Source of the DNA: Candidatus Pelagibacter communis
Lineage (GTDB): Bacteria > Pseudomonadota > Alphaproteobacteria > Pelagibacterales > Pelagibacteraceae
Direction: 5' to 3'
Length of the DNA: 64,000 bases
NCBI RefSeq assembly: GCF_001180165.1
Contig: NZ_CVSQ01000051.1
Span: 1-64,000, forward strand
The notes below the pieces were generated by a model. That model made no database searches and had not been told where the DNA came from. It saw only the letters and a program-made list of their open reading frames with translations. The position numbers and the translations under genes are program-made. Positions within the stretch are counted from its first letter, which is position 1, and the number at the start of each line of letters is the position of its first letter. Of this stretch, positions 2,784 through 54,077 are shown piece by piece.

Positions 2784-3112
2784 TAACTAAACTTTATAAA
2801 AATCTCATCAACTCGTTAAATGGTTTAAAAATTGTAATTAGTGAAAAATCCTTTGTAATGGAATTGATTTTAGGTGTATTTTTAATTCCTTATATTTTTT
2901 TATCCAATATCGAATTTAATTATAAACTATTCTTGTTAGTTCTTTATTTTTTGTTACTAGCAACAGAAATAATGAATACAGCTATTGAAAAATTATCAGA
3001 TAAATTTACTAAAGATTTTGATAATGATATAAAAAATATAAAGGATTTATCAAGTGCATCGGTCTTTATAGTTTTGATAACACTAATCTTAACTTTTTTT
3101 CTTACAATTTAA
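2780..3112 (+). CDS. dgkA: Diacylglycerol kinase (DgkA family)
   Basis: A small inner-membrane kinase that phosphorylates diacylglycerol to phosphatidic acid, recycling lipid released by envelope synthesis. At 110 residues it has family length, with three hydrophobic segments. The conserved core is visible as ATEIMNTAIEKLSD (about residues 70-83), containing the two glutamates of the active site, followed by the K-D-x-S-x-A type motif (IKDLSSASV). It starts inside the preceding stop (ATGA). An AT-rich inverted repeat covers its stop codon and may end the operon. Confidence 0.9.
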   Translation: MITKLYKNLINSLNGLKIVISEKSFVMELILGVFLIPYIFLSNIEFNYKLFLLVLYFLLLATEIMNTAIEKLSDKFTKDFDNDIKNIKDLSSASVFIVLITLILTFFLTI

Positions 3113-3130
3113 TTACAATTAAATTGTAAG
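3101..3130. terminator. AT-rich hairpin over the dgkA stop
   Basis: The 10-bp arms at 3101-3110 and 3121-3130 are perfect inverted repeats (CTTACAATTT / AAATTGTAAG) with a 10-base loop. The left arm contains the dgkA stop. There is no strong T-run after it, so termination is an inference from position at the end of an operon. Confidence 0.4.
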
Positions 3131-3143
3131 ATATCAGGACGTA

Positions 3144-6749: not shown

Positions 6750-7766
6750 CTAGCAACCTTTAAAAGAAGCAGACATATTTCTAATCAATTTAAAGTATAG
6801 ATCTTTACCTGAATCTAAAGTTGCACCTAGTGGGTCTAAAACACCAGTTTTAATCTTCATATCTTTAGCAACAGCATTAATAATATCAGGATTAAATTGA
6901 GGTTCAGAGAATACACAAGCAACTTTATCATGTTCAATGATTTCTCTAATTTCAGCTAGTTGTTCAGCTCCAGGCATTACATCAGTATTAACAGTAAATG
7001 CACCTAAAACTTTAACATTAAATCTTTTTTCAAAATATTGATATGCATCATGGAATACAATTGAAGAAACGCTGCTACTTAAATCTGTCATTACATCAAT
7101 TGTAAGTTTATCGATTTCTTGTAAAGCTTTAGCTAAATTATTTTTGTATTTAGCTTCATTTTTAGGATCATTTTCAATTAAATGTTCAGCCATTTCATTT
7201 AACATAGCTTTTGCATTAATTGGGTCCAACCAAATGTGTGGATCAAATTCACCATGTGCATGTCCATCATGATCGTCATGTCCATGATCGTCATGATCAT
7301 CTTCTTTTTTACCGTGGTCATCATGTCCATGATCGTCATGATCATCTTCTTTTTTACCATGATCGTCATGCCCATGATCGTCATGATCATGTTCGTCAAA
7401 AATATTTCTTTCTCTAAATTTTAATACTTGCAAACCTTTGATTTCTATTAATTCAATTTTTTCTGCTTTTTTTGCAATTGAACTTAGTGGTTTTTCTAAA
7501 AAATTTTCTAAATCTTCACCTACCCAAAATATTAGATCAGCATTTTGGAGCATTTTTGCATGAGAAGGCTTCATTGCAAATCCGTGGGGAGATGCATATC
7601 CATCAACTATTAGATCAGGTTTAGCAATACCGTCCATTAAATAACTAGCTAATGAATGAATTGGTTTAATAGAAGCAACTACTTTTATTTCAGCGTTTGC
7701 TGGTGTAAAGAATGTTAGAATTGATAATATTGAGAATATAAGTGGTATTTTTTTAATATTTTTCAT
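6750..7766 (-). CDS. znuA: Zinc ABC transporter periplasmic binding protein ZnuA
   Basis: The zinc receptor of the ZnuABC importer. It has a signal peptide (hydrophobic segment to about residue 25, cleavage near ANA-EIK) and zinc-ligand regions KPIHSL, DPHIWLDP and FHDAYQYF. Between about residues 125 and 172 lies a His/Asp-rich loop made of a 15-residue unit (HDDHGHDDHGKKEDD) repeated twice and a partial third copy. Such loops collect zinc in high-affinity ZnuA proteins. The gene is divergent from znuCB-zur with two Zur-type palindromes between. Length (338) is normal. Confidence 0.95.
   Translation of the reverse strand: MKNIKKIPLIFSILSILTFFTPANAEIKVVASIKPIHSLASYLMDGIAKPDLIVDGYASPHGFAMKPSHAKMLQNADLIFWVGEDLENFLEKPLSSIAKKAEKIELIEIKGLQVLKFRERNIFDEHDHDDHGHDDHGKKEDDHDDHGHDDHGKKEDDHDDHGHDDHDGHAHGEFDPHIWLDPINAKAMLNEMAEHLIENDPKNEAKYKNNLAKALQEIDKLTIDVMTDLSSSVSSIVFHDAYQYFEKRFNVKVLGAFTVNTDVMPGAEQLAEIREIIEHDKVACVFSEPQFNPDIINAVAKDMKIKTGVLDPLGATLDSGKDLYFKLIRNMSASFKGC
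7254..7391 (-). repeat. 45-bp tandem repeat encoding the ZnuA histidine loop
   Basis: An in-frame tandem array inside znuA, with a unit of 45 bp (15 codons), two full copies and a partial third. The copies differ by a few silent or near-silent bases. It produces spurious open frames on both strands. Unit number is likely to vary between strains by slippage. Confidence 0.85.
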
Positions 7767-48968: not shown

Positions 48969-49229
48969 ATGGTTTATTACGTATATTTCATTAAAACTTT
49001 AGATGGATATCCAGTTAAAACATACGTTGGATATACTAATAATTTAAATAAAAGATTAGAAAAACATAATTCAAATTTAGGTGCCAAGTCTACCAAAGGG
49101 TATAAATGGGAATTTGTTTACAAAAAAAAATTTTATTCTAAATCTAAAGCACTTTCGTTTGAATATAAGCTAAAAAAAGATAGAAAAGAAAGATTGAGAT
49201 TATTATATGAATTTAAAAAAAAATCTTAA
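48969..49229 (+). CDS. GIY-YIG domain endonuclease family protein
   Basis: An 86-residue stand-alone GIY-YIG domain (UPF0213/YhbQ-like). The paired motifs are YYVYFIKT (3-10) and TYVGYTNNLNKRLEKHN (about 19-35, with the catalytic arginine), and a glutamate in LSFEYKLKK (about 66). Likely a DNA nuclease of unknown target. It begins 18 bases after tRNA-Glu and overlaps the glycosyltransferase by 23 bases. Confidence 0.88.
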   Translation: MVYYVYFIKTLDGYPVKTYVGYTNNLNKRLEKHNSNLGAKSTKGYKWEFVYKKKFYSKSKALSFEYKLKKDRKERLRLLYEFKKKS

Positions 49230-51324
49230 TATAGCAACTATCTTGCCATATAAAGAAAATTATACATTTGGTAAAGCATCAGCTGCTTCATTGTGGGTTT
49301 CTGAATTTTTCAAAAAATCAAAATATAAAAAAAATAATATTATTTATGGTCATACAAAATCAAAAGATTATTTAAGCAAAAATTATAAAAATATAAATTT
49401 AAAAAATTTAAAATCAAAATTAAAAAGTACTACCAACGAATATGCAGAAAAACTAATAAAAGAAATTAATAATAATAATTTTGATATTGTAGAAATTCAT
49501 AATAGACCACAATTATTATTTAAATTAATAAATAAAGTTCAAAGTAAATTTATTTTTTATTTTCATAACGATCCTTTATCAATGAAGGGATCCAAATCAG
49601 TTAATGAAAGATTAAAAATACTAAAGGAAGTTGAAAAAATAATATTTGTCAGTGAATGGGTTAGGGAAAGATTTTTTTTAGATATAGATCAAAAATTACA
49701 AACTAAAACTGAAGTAGTTTATCCAAGTGTAAATAAACAAAAAAAAATAAAGAAAGAAAAAAATATAATTTTTGTAGGAAGATTAAATTATTCCAAGGGA
49801 TATGACATCTTTAAAGATGCTATAATAAAAATACTTAACAAATTTCCTAAATGGAAAGCTTATTCATTAGGTGATGAAGATAGAAGAAATATTTATATTA
49901 ATCACCCAAATCATAAAGAGTTAGGATTTGTTAATCATAAAAAAACATTAAATATATTAAATAGATCAGAAATAGCAGTAGTACCATCAAGATGGGAAGA
50001 GCCATTTGGAAGAACCTCATTAGAAGCGACATCAAGAGGATGTGCTACGATTATAAGTAATAGGGGTGGATTAAGAGAAACTACTAACTCAGCCATTATT
50101 TTAAAAAAACTAGACTCAAATGAACTTTTCTTAGAGATTAAAAAATTAATAACAAACAACAAAAAAAGAAAACATATACAATCTTTAAGTAGAAAAAATA
50201 TTATACATTTAATAAATGCAAATACAAAAATAATAGATCAAATACGTGAAAGCTGTGTCCCTTTTTTTAATATTAATTTCAATAAGAAAAAATTAAAAAT
50301 AATAAATTTATATAATCAAGGACAGAAACTTAATCATAGATTATATAATATTTCTTTAGGTAAAAAATTTACTAATGGCTTTGTAAGAAATGGTCATGAT
50401 GTTCTAGAAATTAGTGATAGAGATTTCTTAAGGAATAATAAGTCTTTTAGTTTAATTCCTAATAAAAATAATTTTCAAAAATACTTGATTGATACTTTCA
50501 AGAATTATAATCCAGATATTGTTTTTTTTGGACATAGTAAAAATATAGAACTTAATACCTTAGATGATTTTAAAACTATTAATAAAAATCTCATCTTGTC
50601 ACAATGGAACGAAGATCCAGTGATGCAAAGTCTTAATTATTCAAAACAAAATATTTCAAATATTAAAATGTATTCAGATTTTGTAGATCATAACTTCATT
50701 ACAACAGATCCCTCAATTTTAGATAAAACTATTAACACAAGTAATTTTAATTTTTTCTTTGTACCTGTAGATAAAAATATTGAAAGCTTTGAAGTTTATC
50801 AAATGAAACCAAAAAAAGATTTATTTTATGCGATGAGTCACGGTGTAAATAGAGCAACTCTTAAAGAAGGTAGTGAAGATGACAGAATTAATTTTTTGAA
50901 TAAATTAGTAAATAAAATTCCTAATATAAAATATGATTTTTACGGATTTGCTAACAAGCAACCAATTTGGGGCAATGATTTCAACAATTCATTAATTAAT
51001 TCAAAAATGGGTCTTAACTTAAGCAGAGGTAAACCTACAAAGTATTACTCTAGTAACAGAATTGCTTCCATAATGGGAAATGGTTTGCTTACATTTATTG
51101 ATGAAAAAGTTCAAATGAATGATTTTTTTAGTAAAAATGAAATTGTTTTTTATAAAAATATAAATGATTTAGCTGATAAAATTAAATTTTATTCTAAAAA
51201 TGATAAAATAAGAATTAAAATTGCTCGAAATGGTAAAAAAAAATATTTCAAACTTTTCAATGAAACTAAAATTACAAAATATTTTTTAGATATATCTTTA
51301 GGTAATAAAAGTTCCTTATTTTAA
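49207..51324 (+). CDS. Two-domain glycosyltransferase (GT4-type plus CgeB-like)
   Basis: A large 705-residue protein built from two glycosyltransferase-like modules. Residues 1-365 are a GT-B enzyme with IIFVGRLNYSKGYDIF (about 187-202) and the nucleotide-sugar motif PSRWEEPFGRTSLEA (about 259-273). Residues 370-700 resemble the CgeB/YkvP-type glycosyl_transf_1_2 domain (NLSRGKPTKYYSSNRIASIMGNGL and a KNINDLADKI segment). The product probably decorates surface glycan. It is followed by a methyltransferase, and the codons are very Lys/Asn/Ile-rich even for this window. Confidence 0.8.
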   Translation: MNLKKNLNIATILPYKENYTFGKASAASLWVSEFFKKSKYKKNNIIYGHTKSKDYLSKNYKNINLKNLKSKLKSTTNEYAEKLIKEINNNNFDIVEIHNRPQLLFKLINKVQSKFIFYFHNDPLSMKGSKSVNERLKILKEVEKIIFVSEWVRERFFLDIDQKLQTKTEVVYPSVNKQKKIKKEKNIIFVGRLNYSKGYDIFKDAIIKILNKFPKWKAYSLGDEDRRNIYINHPNHKELGFVNHKKTLNILNRSEIAVVPSRWEEPFGRTSLEATSRGCATIISNRGGLRETTNSAIILKKLDSNELFLEIKKLITNNKKRKHIQSLSRKNIIHLINANTKIIDQIRESCVPFFNINFNKKKLKIINLYNQGQKLNHRLYNISLGKKFTNGFVRNGHDVLEISDRDFLRNNKSFSLIPNKNNFQKYLIDTFKNYNPDIVFFGHSKNIELNTLDDFKTINKNLILSQWNEDPVMQSLNYSKQNISNIKMYSDFVDHNFITTDPSILDKTINTSNFNFFFVPVDKNIESFEVYQMKPKKDLFYAMSHGVNRATLKEGSEDDRINFLNKLVNKIPNIKYDFYGFANKQPIWGNDFNNSLINSKMGLNLSRGKPTKYYSSNRIASIMGNGLLTFIDEKVQMNDFFSKNEIVFYKNINDLADKIKFYSKNDKIRIKIARNGKKKYFKLFNETKITKYFLDISLGNKSSLF

Positions 51325-51327
51325 TTA

Positions 51328-52032
51328 ATGACTAAATTTTTTAAAAATTTATATCGTTTAATGCTAATTGGAACTCCTTTATTTATTATATTCAATTATA
51401 TTAGGAATTTTTTACCCAACTTTAAAACCAAAAAAAAATCAAAAAAAATAGAAAATAGAATTTATAATCAATTTCATAGTATAAATTCTAATGAAAAATG
51501 GTTTTGTAATAATTTAAATTTTTTGTCTACCAATTTCAAAAATATTCAAAATGTAAAAACTATGCTTGAAATTGGCTCTTACGAAGGAAGAAGTGCAATT
51601 TTTTTTCTTAAAAATTTTTCTAATAGCAATTTAACTTGTGTTGATACTTGGTCTGGAAGTGATGAGCATACTAGTGTTAATTTTAAATTAATAGAAAAAA
51701 ACTTTGATTTGAATACATCGTTTTATCAATCTAATAATCTTTTAAGAAAATACAAAATGACATCTAATGATTTTTTTAAACAAAATGATAAATATTTTGA
51801 TTTAATATATGTTGATGGAGATCATTCTTCTGATCAGGTCAAAATTGATTTAATTAATGCCTGGAATGTTTTAAAAAATGGAGGTTTTTTAGTATTGGAT
51901 GATTATATGTGGTGGTATTACAAAGATTATAAAAAAAATCCATCAACTCCAATAAACAATTTTATTAAAAAAAATATTTTAAATATTTCAAATTTAACCG
52001 TTTGGCATCAAGTAATAATTCAAAAAGCTTAA
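51328..52032 (+). CDS. Class I SAM-dependent methyltransferase (Methyltransf_24 type)
   Basis: A 234-residue protein with an N-terminal membrane-like segment (about 10-28) and a methyltransferase core: MLEIGSYEGRSAIFF (about 78-92, motif I), TCVDTWSGSDEH, FDLIYVDGDHSSDQV and NGGFLVLDDYMW. This subgroup usually accompanies glycan genes, as here. It ends exactly where the convergent recombinase gene ends (no spacer). Confidence 0.8.
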   Translation: MTKFFKNLYRLMLIGTPLFIIFNYIRNFLPNFKTKKKSKKIENRIYNQFHSINSNEKWFCNNLNFLSTNFKNIQNVKTMLEIGSYEGRSAIFFLKNFSNSNLTCVDTWSGSDEHTSVNFKLIEKNFDLNTSFYQSNNLLRKYKMTSNDFFKQNDKYFDLIYVDGDHSSDQVKIDLINAWNVLKNGGFLVLDDYMWWYYKDYKKNPSTPINNFIKKNILNISNLTVWHQVIIQKA

Positions 52033-52986
52033 TTATAATTTTACTTTATTTAAAGCATTATTTTTAAATAGATTAGCTTCTTTAATATATCTTCTAACCA
52101 TTTGTGTTGTTTTATGTCCCGTCATAGCCATTATGCTTCTTTCATCTGCTCCTGACTCAGCTGCTACTGTTGCGAACCCCGATCTTAAGCTATGACCTGC
52201 AAAATTTTCATTTTCTATTCCAGCTAAATTTAAATACTTTTTCATCAACAAAACTACAGATTGGTCAGATAATCTTTTATCAGTCAAAATCGATCCTTTT
52301 GAAAATCTTCTAAAGATAGGTCCAGATTTGATTTTAGTAATAGCTAGCCACCTTTTAAGATTCACTATTGGGCAATATATTTCATTAGAAAAGTAGGGCA
52401 GACCTTTTATCATTCCTTCGCCAAATTGATCTGTTTTTGATCTTTTAATAGTGATTTTGAGCCCTTCAGGAACAAATTCTAAATCCTCATGATCAATTGA
52501 AATCAGTTCTGTTCTTCTAAAGCCGCCTCCAAAGCCAATTAAGATTATTGATTTGTCTCTAAGTTTTTTTATTTCCTCAGTTTTTTGATCATTTATTACA
52601 TTAATAATTGATTTTAAATAATTGATTAATAACGGTTTTTTACCTTTTTGAATACTTCCTTTCACTCTTCTTATTCCCATTAAATTTTCAACTATGATTG
52701 GATGTTTGGTATCTAGATAATGCCCTTTAAGCTTATGTACCATGCTGATTGATACTAATCTTCGTCTTAAAGTGCTTATTTTTGAATTTTTAGAGAGATG
52801 GGTTAGGTATAAGGAAACTACTTTTGGCTCTGTTGGTAATACATTCAATCCATGCTTTGTACAAAAAGCCCCAAAGTCTTTAAAGTCAGATTTATAAGCT
52901 CTTAAAGTATTGTTAGCCTTTGAACTTTTCAGATTATTTAAAGTTGCCTCATGTAGCGATTTTAGGTCTGTTGTTAGCTCATTCAT
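52033..52986 (-). CDS. Tyrosine recombinase (phage integrase family)
   Basis: A 317-residue site-specific recombinase. The N-terminal SAM-like core-binding domain (about 8-100, ANNTLRAYKSDFKDFGAFC) is followed by a catalytic domain with R in GFGGGFRRTELIS (about 155-167), K in KITIKRSKTD, HSLRSGFA (about 271-278), GHKT (about 292) and the nucleophile tyrosine in MVRRYIKEA. All catalytic residues are present. No phage genes, excisionase or second recombinase are seen, and a 15-bp inverted repeat sits immediately before its start codon. Confidence 0.92.
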   Translation of the reverse strand: MNELTTDLKSLHEATLNNLKSSKANNTLRAYKSDFKDFGAFCTKHGLNVLPTEPKVVSLYLTHLSKNSKISTLRRRLVSISMVHKLKGHYLDTKHPIIVENLMGIRRVKGSIQKGKKPLLINYLKSIINVINDQKTEEIKKLRDKSIILIGFGGGFRRTELISIDHEDLEFVPEGLKITIKRSKTDQFGEGMIKGLPYFSNEIYCPIVNLKRWLAITKIKSGPIFRRFSKGSILTDKRLSDQSVVLLMKKYLNLAGIENENFAGHSLRSGFATVAAESGADERSIMAMTGHKTTQMVRRYIKEANLFKNNALNKVKL

Positions 52987-52988
52987 AT

Positions 52989-53025
52989 TATTACTATTGA
53001 TAACAATTAATTATCATTAGTAATA
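52989..53025. repeat. Lox-like 15-7-15 inverted repeat before the recombinase
   Basis: Arms 52989-53003 (TATTACTATTGATAA) and 53011-53025 (TTATCATTAGTAATA) are inverted repeats matching at 14 of 15 positions around a seven-base spacer. It begins two bases upstream of the recombinase start codon. The geometry resembles tyrosine-recombinase core sites; an operator or a translation-blocking mRNA hairpin are equally possible. Confidence 0.6.
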
Positions 53026-53121
53026 TAACAAGAGTTTTCTAATGTCAAATAAAATAATTAGTCATTTTTAGGGACAATTAATGATATTGCGAGCTCAATA
53101 ATGATGAAATATAACTTATAG

Positions 53122-53883: not shown

Positions 53884-54077
53884 TTTAAGTATTTTGTTTT
53901 ATTTTCTTTATTAATATTGCTATTTATGTCTTTATCTATTTAAGATAATAGTAATTTATTTGATAATTTGTATTAATTTATATATATATTATATATAATA
54001 AAATATATAATAATTACAATAGTTTAATTAACTATATTAATGTATTACATTATATATTAGTAACTATTTATTTACTA

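Follow-up and report, generated by a model that had tools for sequence, protein, structure and literature searches.

A Cre-like tyrosine recombinase and a dif-like site at the replication terminus point to a replacement of dif/Xer in SAR11 bacteria

The window analysed here is a stretch of 64,000 nucleotides from Candidatus Pelagibacter communis, whose genome (804,609 bp, 66% complete) has its relatives in the Pelagibacteraceae (SAR11). A Xer/Cre-like single tyrosine recombinase of 317 amino acids is encoded on the minus strand (52033..52986; start codon ATG at 52984-52986), and it consists of a SAM-like N-terminal domain and a catalytic domain. The protein matches the Pfam families PF00589 (E 3.5e-19) and PF02899 (E 1.5e-6), and its PF00589 score of 69.7 bits against a cut-off of 27.1 places it in the tyrosine recombinase superfamily. 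The residues R157, K184, H265, R268, H291, and Y300, which we take to be the catalytic set of this family, are invariant in 25 aligned proteins as well as in a set of 13 from the Pelagibacteraceae, in agreement with a preliminary description of the locus in which all catalytic residues were said to be kept. The absence of phage neighbours noted there also holds for the listed open reading frames (ORFs) of the window, as judged by eye. A prophage integrase was rejected as a candidate on the basis of the family-wide distribution described below and the lack of phage genes among the window ORFs.

A structural model of the recombinase was calculated with AF2. The model from 13 sequences had a poor C-terminus, and an alignment of 25 sequences was used instead, giving a pLDDT of 89.5. 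The closest fold in the PDB is Cre (E 4.1e-14, TM 0.78), with approximately 18% identity in the structural alignment, and Cre is also the best PDB profile match (8.9e-13). Both by profile and by fold, Cre ranks before the integron integrase, XerA, and XerH; the values for XerH (PDB 5jjv) are E 9e-8 (profile) and 3.4e-9 (fold). The scores against the curated NCBIfam models are well below their cut-offs: 62.5 bits versus 335.15 for XerC (TIGR02224), 72.5 versus 329.6 for XerD (TIGR02225), 44.8 versus 267 for XerS (NF003462), and 64.7 versus 220 for archaeal XerA (NF040815). The identification of the protein as an ordinary XerD was rejected on this ground.

The inverted repeat reported in the preliminary description is real. 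It extends over 52989..53025 with 14 of 15 pairs matching around a 7-bp spacer, and it ends 2 nt from the recombinase ATG. The arm proximal to the gene (52989..53003) is TATTACTATTGATAA, which includes TTATCAATAGTAA on the gene's strand, and the distal arm (53011..53025) is TTATCATTAGTAATA, which includes TTACTAATGATAA on that strand. The central region (53004..53010, minus strand) reads CAATTAA forward and TTAATTG on the gene's strand. A repeat search with a seed of 9 missed this element because the uninterrupted matches in it are 8 and 6 bases long. Arms of 15 bp that pair at 14 or more positions and are 6–8 bp apart occur at two places in the window (3098 and 52989), and the same definition gave a mean of 0.067 in simulated order-1 Markov sequences of 64 kb, with one or more occurrences in 3 of 60 runs. 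A chance palindrome was rejected on this rarity, and the conservation of the element excludes chance far more strongly. The repeat at 3098-3133 (14/15, 6-bp centre) lies between convergent ORFs ending at 3112 (+) and 3188 (−) and is possibly a bidirectional terminator. In addition, very AT-rich overlapping palindromes are present at 53956-54019 of the window, in an intergenic region beyond the O6-methylguanine-DNA methyltransferase gene.

A putative sigma-70 promoter overlaps the repeat on the minus strand. The candidate −35 element TTGACA is located at 53043..53048 and the putative −10 element TATTAC at 53020..53025, 17 nt from the −35 element and within the distal arm. In 111 of the 116 distinct Pelagibacteraceae sequences described in the next paragraph, TTGAC precedes the core by 33 nt.

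The core of the repeat, GATAA-N7-TTATC, is present at the recombinase start codon in 127 of 127 Pelagibacteraceae loci. Some of these loci represent one contig from two collections, and merging identical entries left 116 distinct upstream sequences. The distance from the end of the core to the start codon is 12 nt in 102 of them (127 loci, 116 distinct). Across the 116 sequences, which are related and hence not independent, the information per base is 1.95 bits for the 17-bp core, 1.57 and 1.62 bits for the outer arms, and 0.43 bits further upstream. The conserved arms are approximately 13 bp long, which refines the 15-bp arms and defines a 33-bp unit at 52991-53023. In the G012 complete chromosome, the next best match to this 33-mer has 9 mismatches. 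Taken together, the unit upstream of the ATG is a single-copy, non-coding, palindromic, low-GC site of approximately 30 bp. Further copies of the arms, which the preliminary description proposed to search for, are thus not found in close form in this chromosome, but they are present in viral contigs as described below. The lack of a second copy anywhere, suggested there as a refutation, does not serve as one because a dif site occurs once per chromosome.

Two types of the site can be distinguished by the outer arms. Most genomes of genus g1 and one of the two chromosomes of g11 have type A (TTACTA.../...TAGTAA). Type B (TTCC.../...GGAA) is found in g8, in the g13 genomes, in four genomes of g1, and in the second chromosome of g11. 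A search of 101 genomes with up to 3 mismatches matched 38, and a single type-A copy was present in 38 of the 42 same-genus genomes with the recombinase. The other four have type B, as expected beforehand, and all four encode a protein with a short loop. A loop of approximately 12 residues is missing from nine type-B proteins (including that of G053) and kept in nine type-A proteins; the type-A genome G116 keeps it, unlike its congener G108. The site type and the protein loop co-vary.

The recombinase was detected in 247 of 298 Pelagibacteraceae genomes with at least 80% completeness (the window's own counted apart), representing 10 of 10 genera. It is missing from 51 of the 298, including 19 of the 140 that are at least 90% complete; among 20 listed of the 51, all are in at least seven contigs. 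Nearly every genome with a match has one, and the gene is present in 42 of 61 genomes of the same genus (own included). In 11 single-contig chromosomes, picked among the genomes with a match, one match each was found; eight of them have no other PF00589 protein, and three have one more, in frames of 345–450 aa. On this count, these 11 chromosomes have one recombinase of the present type. A PF00589 match of XerC/XerD strength is absent among the 61 same-genus genomes, where the maximum is 83.4 bits. In another family of the order, weak matches alone to the SAR11 recombinase were found in 34 of 40 genomes. PF00589 proteins are present there in 40 of 40 genomes, with at least two in 31, mostly at 133–164 bits, and proteins in this score range may be read as XerC and XerD.

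FtsK with the gamma domain was found in all 11 single-contig chromosomes searched, a count that refers to presence only. The match of the PF01580 motor domain in the G012 FtsK (L169 3890-5986) spans 187 residues for 220 model positions and contains a gap. This gap is not seen in the FtsK of a genome from the other family, and the motor domain of the G012 protein is possibly shortened. A search of G012 for an octamer that orients FtsK (KOPS) gave weakly polar purine-rich words and no clear candidate.

Outside the family, distant homologs of the recombinase are sporadic, with 20 such genomes among the 385 of the class that were sampled (E ≤ 1e-25). Near the gene start, 6 of 10 alphaproteobacterial homologs have a palindrome resembling that of SAR11 (GATAA-N6/7-TTATC or a close variant), a frequency that stands without a control. 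The homologs at L346, L347, L349, L351, L352, and L353 are 33–36% identical and have their own GATAA-N6/7-TTATC-like palindrome; such homologs are perhaps members of a wider lox-like family. The sporadic homologs and their palindromes suggest that the SAR11 system began as a mobile, lox-like module that came to be domesticated, with XerCD being lost.

The cumulative GC skew, whose maximum is the usual mark of the terminus, was calculated for the G012 chromosome (1,343,202 bp). It peaks at 615,773, and the site is located at 617,602-617,634. The GC3 skew peaks at 618,083 and the gene orientation at 615,799, and the GC-skew minimum is about half a chromosome from the site. In six more chromosomes from four genera, analysed over ±100 kb, the GC-skew maximum is 591–2343 bp from the gene start (6/6) and the orientation maximum is within about 1 kb of the gene (6/6), the two signals being mutually correlated. 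The skew was thus tested in 7 of the 11 known single-contig chromosomes (G012 as a whole and six at ±100 kb), and its maximum is 0.6–2.3 kb from the site in 7 of 7, which places the site at the terminus. The maxima of GC3 alone are imprecise in five of the six (G130, −78 kb; G126, −54 kb; G144, −53 kb; G105, +23 kb; G103, +9.5 kb) and are close only in G108 (−1.8 kb) and G012. Among 80 loci, 47 have full 6-kb flanks, and in 47 of 47 the skew changes sign at the gene, from positive values on the side of the site to negative values past the gene, with a flip of gene orientation as well; because of shared ancestry, the seven chromosomes and the 47 loci are not independent trials. The window shows the same switch, with the GC-skew maximum at 51915 and the orientation maximum at 52029.

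The genes adjacent to the recombinase were compared wherever a neighbour lay within 1.5 kb. On the stop-codon side, the closest genes differ greatly between loci (22 clusters in 89 loci) and by eye are mostly glycan or methyltransferase genes. Those on the site side are less variable (11 clusters in 93 loci), and 62 are the O6-methylguanine-DNA methyltransferase gene. The neighbours are variable, and therefore one fixed gene block does not explain the terminus position. In the window, glycosyltransferase and methyltransferase genes (49207-52032) lie beside the recombinase on the variable side, directly at the terminus. A stand-alone GIY-YIG domain protein of 86 aa is encoded at 48969-49229, adjoining tRNA-Glu. 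Elsewhere in the window, the ORF at 6750-7766 contains a repeated His/Asp-rich stretch, DHDDHGHDDHGKKED, and by eye resembles a metal-binding transporter protein.

Copies of the site were found in viral sequences. The type-A site with a free centre of 6–8 bp is present in 58 IMG/VR contigs, against 0 for a permuted-arm palindrome, and the type-B site in at least 120 viral stretches, against 1 for the permuted-arm control. In 32 of the 58 type-A contigs, a large terminase subunit (TerL) is encoded whose relatives include the proteins of HTVC106P, HTVC010P, and further pelagiphages. The recombinase is encoded on 0 of the 58 type-A viral pieces, most of which are partial contigs. The host type-A site with its centre is matched over 35–37 bp in three contigs with unrelated flanks, two of which share 1,861 identical bases and belong to the same or nearly the same phage; the other 55 of the 58 have different centres. 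Type-A and type-B sites stand side by side in 13 of the 58 type-A contigs (L250, L370, L373, L378, L386, L388, L389, L392, L393, L400, L403, L404, and L416), with their starts 25–43 bp apart. In nine further contigs (L438, L443, L446, L449, L451, L458, L468, L469, and L470), a type-B site lies near a recombinase homolog with 23–41% identity, a linkage whose rate is biased because these contigs were found by the site. The sole relative from the first viral scan, L111, was rejected as part of an unrelated integrase.

Records with TerL relatives numbered 64, of which 22 are Pelagibacter phages, and the regions of 12 cultured pelagiphages were examined, nine taken via TerL and three via the site search. 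In Greip, the type-A match is perfect and its centre is 6 bp long, and in HTVC100P the type-A match has one mismatch. The site search had yielded both, and the three phages so obtained are a biased sample because the search itself found them. Of those taken by terminase, HTVC035P has a type-B form (1 mismatch) abutting a type-A form (2 mismatches), and HTVC106P has a type-B form (1 mismatch) beside a type-A form (3 mismatches). HTVC024P, Lederberg, HTVC204P, HTVC203P, HTVC034P, Skadi-3, and HTVC010P have degenerate forms only, most of which do not exceed background; degenerate type-A forms are placed at background because matches with 5–6 mismatches recur elsewhere in HTVC100P and Greip. No form of the site is present within the stretch of HTVC028P that was examined. 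No integrase is annotated in the full records of HTVC100P and Greip, none was detected by Pfam in 10 proteins of each, and neither phage encodes a relative of the SAR11 recombinase. These two phages therefore each carry a dif mimic (1 and 0 mismatches, respectively) in an element without a detected integrase, as described for IMEX. TerL relatives are present in 8 of 397 family genomes; no type-A or type-B site was found at seven of the eight TerL-bearing family loci scanned, and a prophage at the site was not found.

The preliminary description proposed three readings of the repeat: a recombination site, an autoregulatory operator, and an mRNA hairpin hiding the ribosome-binding site. The recombination-site reading is strongly supported, specifically as a dif-like site at the terminus, a form which that description had not considered. 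If the repeat were an operator only, with the recombinase repressing its own promoter and its real recombination target elsewhere, the conserved TTGAC, the putative −10 element in the outer arm, and the similar palindromes near the gene starts of alphaproteobacterial homologs would be explained. However, the spacer is conserved too (the centre TTAATTG is identical in 98 of the 116 distinct sequences), beyond the needs of dyad binding, the element lies at the skew maximum in all seven chromosomes, and G012 has no second close match to the 33-mer. Moreover, viral contigs carry the site without the gene on the type-A pieces: the site travels as a recombination target would and as an operator of this one gene would not. 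The operator-only account is very unlikely. As an extra role, autoregulation is plausible, since the putative −10 element is inside the distal arm and recombinase binding should therefore block the gene's own promoter. The hairpin has in its favour that a Shine-Dalgarno sequence is not visible and that the repeat abuts the start codon. Nevertheless, pairing is lost without compensation at arm position 6 in 30 and at arm position 7 in 96 of the 116 distinct sequences, the loop sequence is conserved, and the copies in viral contigs come without the recombinase gene on the examined pieces. Transcription is predicted to start inside the repeat, leaving the left arm mostly upstream of the putative transcript, which argues against a hairpin and makes autorepression plausible; we give the hairpin hardly any credence. 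An origin in a mobile element, with the recombinase as its leftover or resident integrase and the repeat as its attachment site, is also highly improbable. The sporadic homologs outside the family, the variable neighbours on the stop-codon side, and distant homologs on 9 of 77 B-only viral contigs (among the matches listed) would fit such an origin, but the gene spans all 10 genera, with a single match in nearly all of the genomes that carry it, it is at the terminus wherever examined, G012 lacks a second site, and the nearest neighbours include no mobile-element gene recognisable by eye. By contrast with these accounts, a chromosome dimer resolution module of the Pelagibacteraceae, comprising one Cre-like recombinase and its own dif-like site at the terminus, is very probably what the locus represents.

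The role of the phage copies is less certain. Their presence suggests that integrase-less phages may use the host Xer, and integration would then take place at the SAR11 site. According to Buchholz et al. 2021, the infection dynamics of most isolates suggest lysogeny or chronic infection, among other options, and Greip and HTVC010P are without lysogeny genes (PMC8163748). Some members of the abundant group of pelagiphages related to HTVC010P by terminase may be cryptic temperate phages of the IMEX type that integrate at the terminus via the host resolvase, in part through a composite B+A region, with the SAR11 module being a domesticated lox-like replacement of XerCD/dif. To this combined proposal, we tentatively assign somewhat less than an even chance. 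Alternatively, the copies may serve the phage itself through the host recombinase, in concatemer or dimer resolution, packaging, or regulation, and not as attachment sites. This is a real possibility, albeit a doubtful one: the commonest host centre TTAATTG is found in only 3 of the 58 type-A contigs, wherever a type-A contig contains both the site and TerL (32 of 32), the two are 311–1104 bp apart, no prophage at the site was found, and the type phage HTVC010P lacks a good copy. On the other side stand the persistence-like dynamics mentioned above and the three contigs (two from the same or nearly the same phage) that match the host site and centre amid unrelated flanks, as an IMEX mimic does.

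Among known systems, Cre/loxP of phage P1 shares with SAR11 the use of one recombinase and gives the best fold and profile match. The arms of loxP are 13 bp long, similar to the approximately 13 bp of SAR11, and its centre is 8 bp compared with 7 bp in SAR11. Unlike Cre, to which it is approximately 18% identical, the SAR11 recombinase is chromosomal and terminus-located and is not plasmid-borne. The inner halves of the SAR11 site resemble the inner half-sites of Escherichia coli dif (ATAA...TTAT). FtsK gamma is shared with the E. coli XerC/XerD system, whereas SAR11 has one recombinase scoring well below the XerC and XerD cut-offs, nearly symmetric arms, and a 7-bp centre. XerS/difSL of streptococci and lactococci and XerH/difH of Helicobacter and Campylobacter, according to the papers describing them, likewise link a single recombinase to a palindromic low-GC terminus site in the presence of FtsK (PMC2731167, PMC5357621). 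The SAR11 recombinase lies outside the sequence group of XerS (44.8 bits versus 267) and matches XerH by profile only at E 9e-8. Its site has a 7-bp spacer as opposed to 11 bp in difSL (PMC5357621) and, in contrast to both systems, overlaps a putative promoter of the recombinase gene. XerL/dif of the Legionellales is, by its published description, likewise a "missing" single-recombinase system, recognised via the dif mimic of a mobile element; its function is proven genetically, its dif is non-coding and is flanked by different genes in different genomes, and its authors' tree puts XerL in a clade of its own (PMC9765430). As a divergent single recombinase of a system declared missing, XerL is the nearest precedent. 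IMEX elements such as CTXphi and LME-1 resemble the present case in that pelagiphage DNA copies the host dif-like site, with no integrase listed in two full phage records. They differ in that the SAR11 carriers are tailed phages (Greip is a podovirus, PMC8163748) and in the pairing of A and B sites in 13 of the 58 contigs.

On the best reading, the SAR11 module would function as dif/Xer systems with one recombinase do, its enzyme being Cre-like. Homologous recombination would join sister chromosomes into a dimer, and the two copies of the site would meet at the septum with the help of FtsK translocation. Protomers of the recombinase, four in number, would then bind the arms, contacting the GATAA...TTATC inner halves and the outer halves of type A or type B, and would cut on either side of the 7-bp centre, so that strand exchange yields monomers. 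The same binding probably represses the promoter of the recombinase gene. Membership in this functional class draws on position, copy number, distribution, and architecture, and the enzymatic function is predicted from sequence; for the predicted module, we infer that the protein binds and cleaves the site, resolves dimers, depends on FtsK, and represses its own gene. The module seems to have taken the place of XerCD/dif, and its apparent origin is a lox-like family, some of whose members in other bacteria and on viral contigs are adjacent to similar sites. Regarding expression, a sulfur-depletion table in PMC5069961 lists SAR11_1019 xerD, possibly this recombinase gene, with recA, and according to PMC3090418 light raises the expression of both xerD and recA.

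Searches of an open-licence library returned no description of a SAR11 dif/Xer system, or of its use by pelagiphages. The study of HTVC010P life strategies by Du et al. 2021 may already discuss lysogeny or att sites. According to Carnoy and Roten 2009, Pelagibacter ubique is without dif/Xer and serves as a case of streamlining discarding a non-vital function, and there was no evidence to suggest systems of the Cre/loxP kind in dif/Xer-deficient proteobacteria (PMC2731167). The present data point to a Cre-like replacement of dif/Xer in SAR11, a clade thought to lack such a system. The site marks the SAR11 terminus to about 2 kb, and the 33-bp unit is directly testable. If the proposed phage integration is true, an attachment region with B beside A could let one phage use hosts of either dif type. 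The pelagiphage copies of the site would then offer a mechanism for the persistence-like infection by phages without an integrase (PMC8163748).
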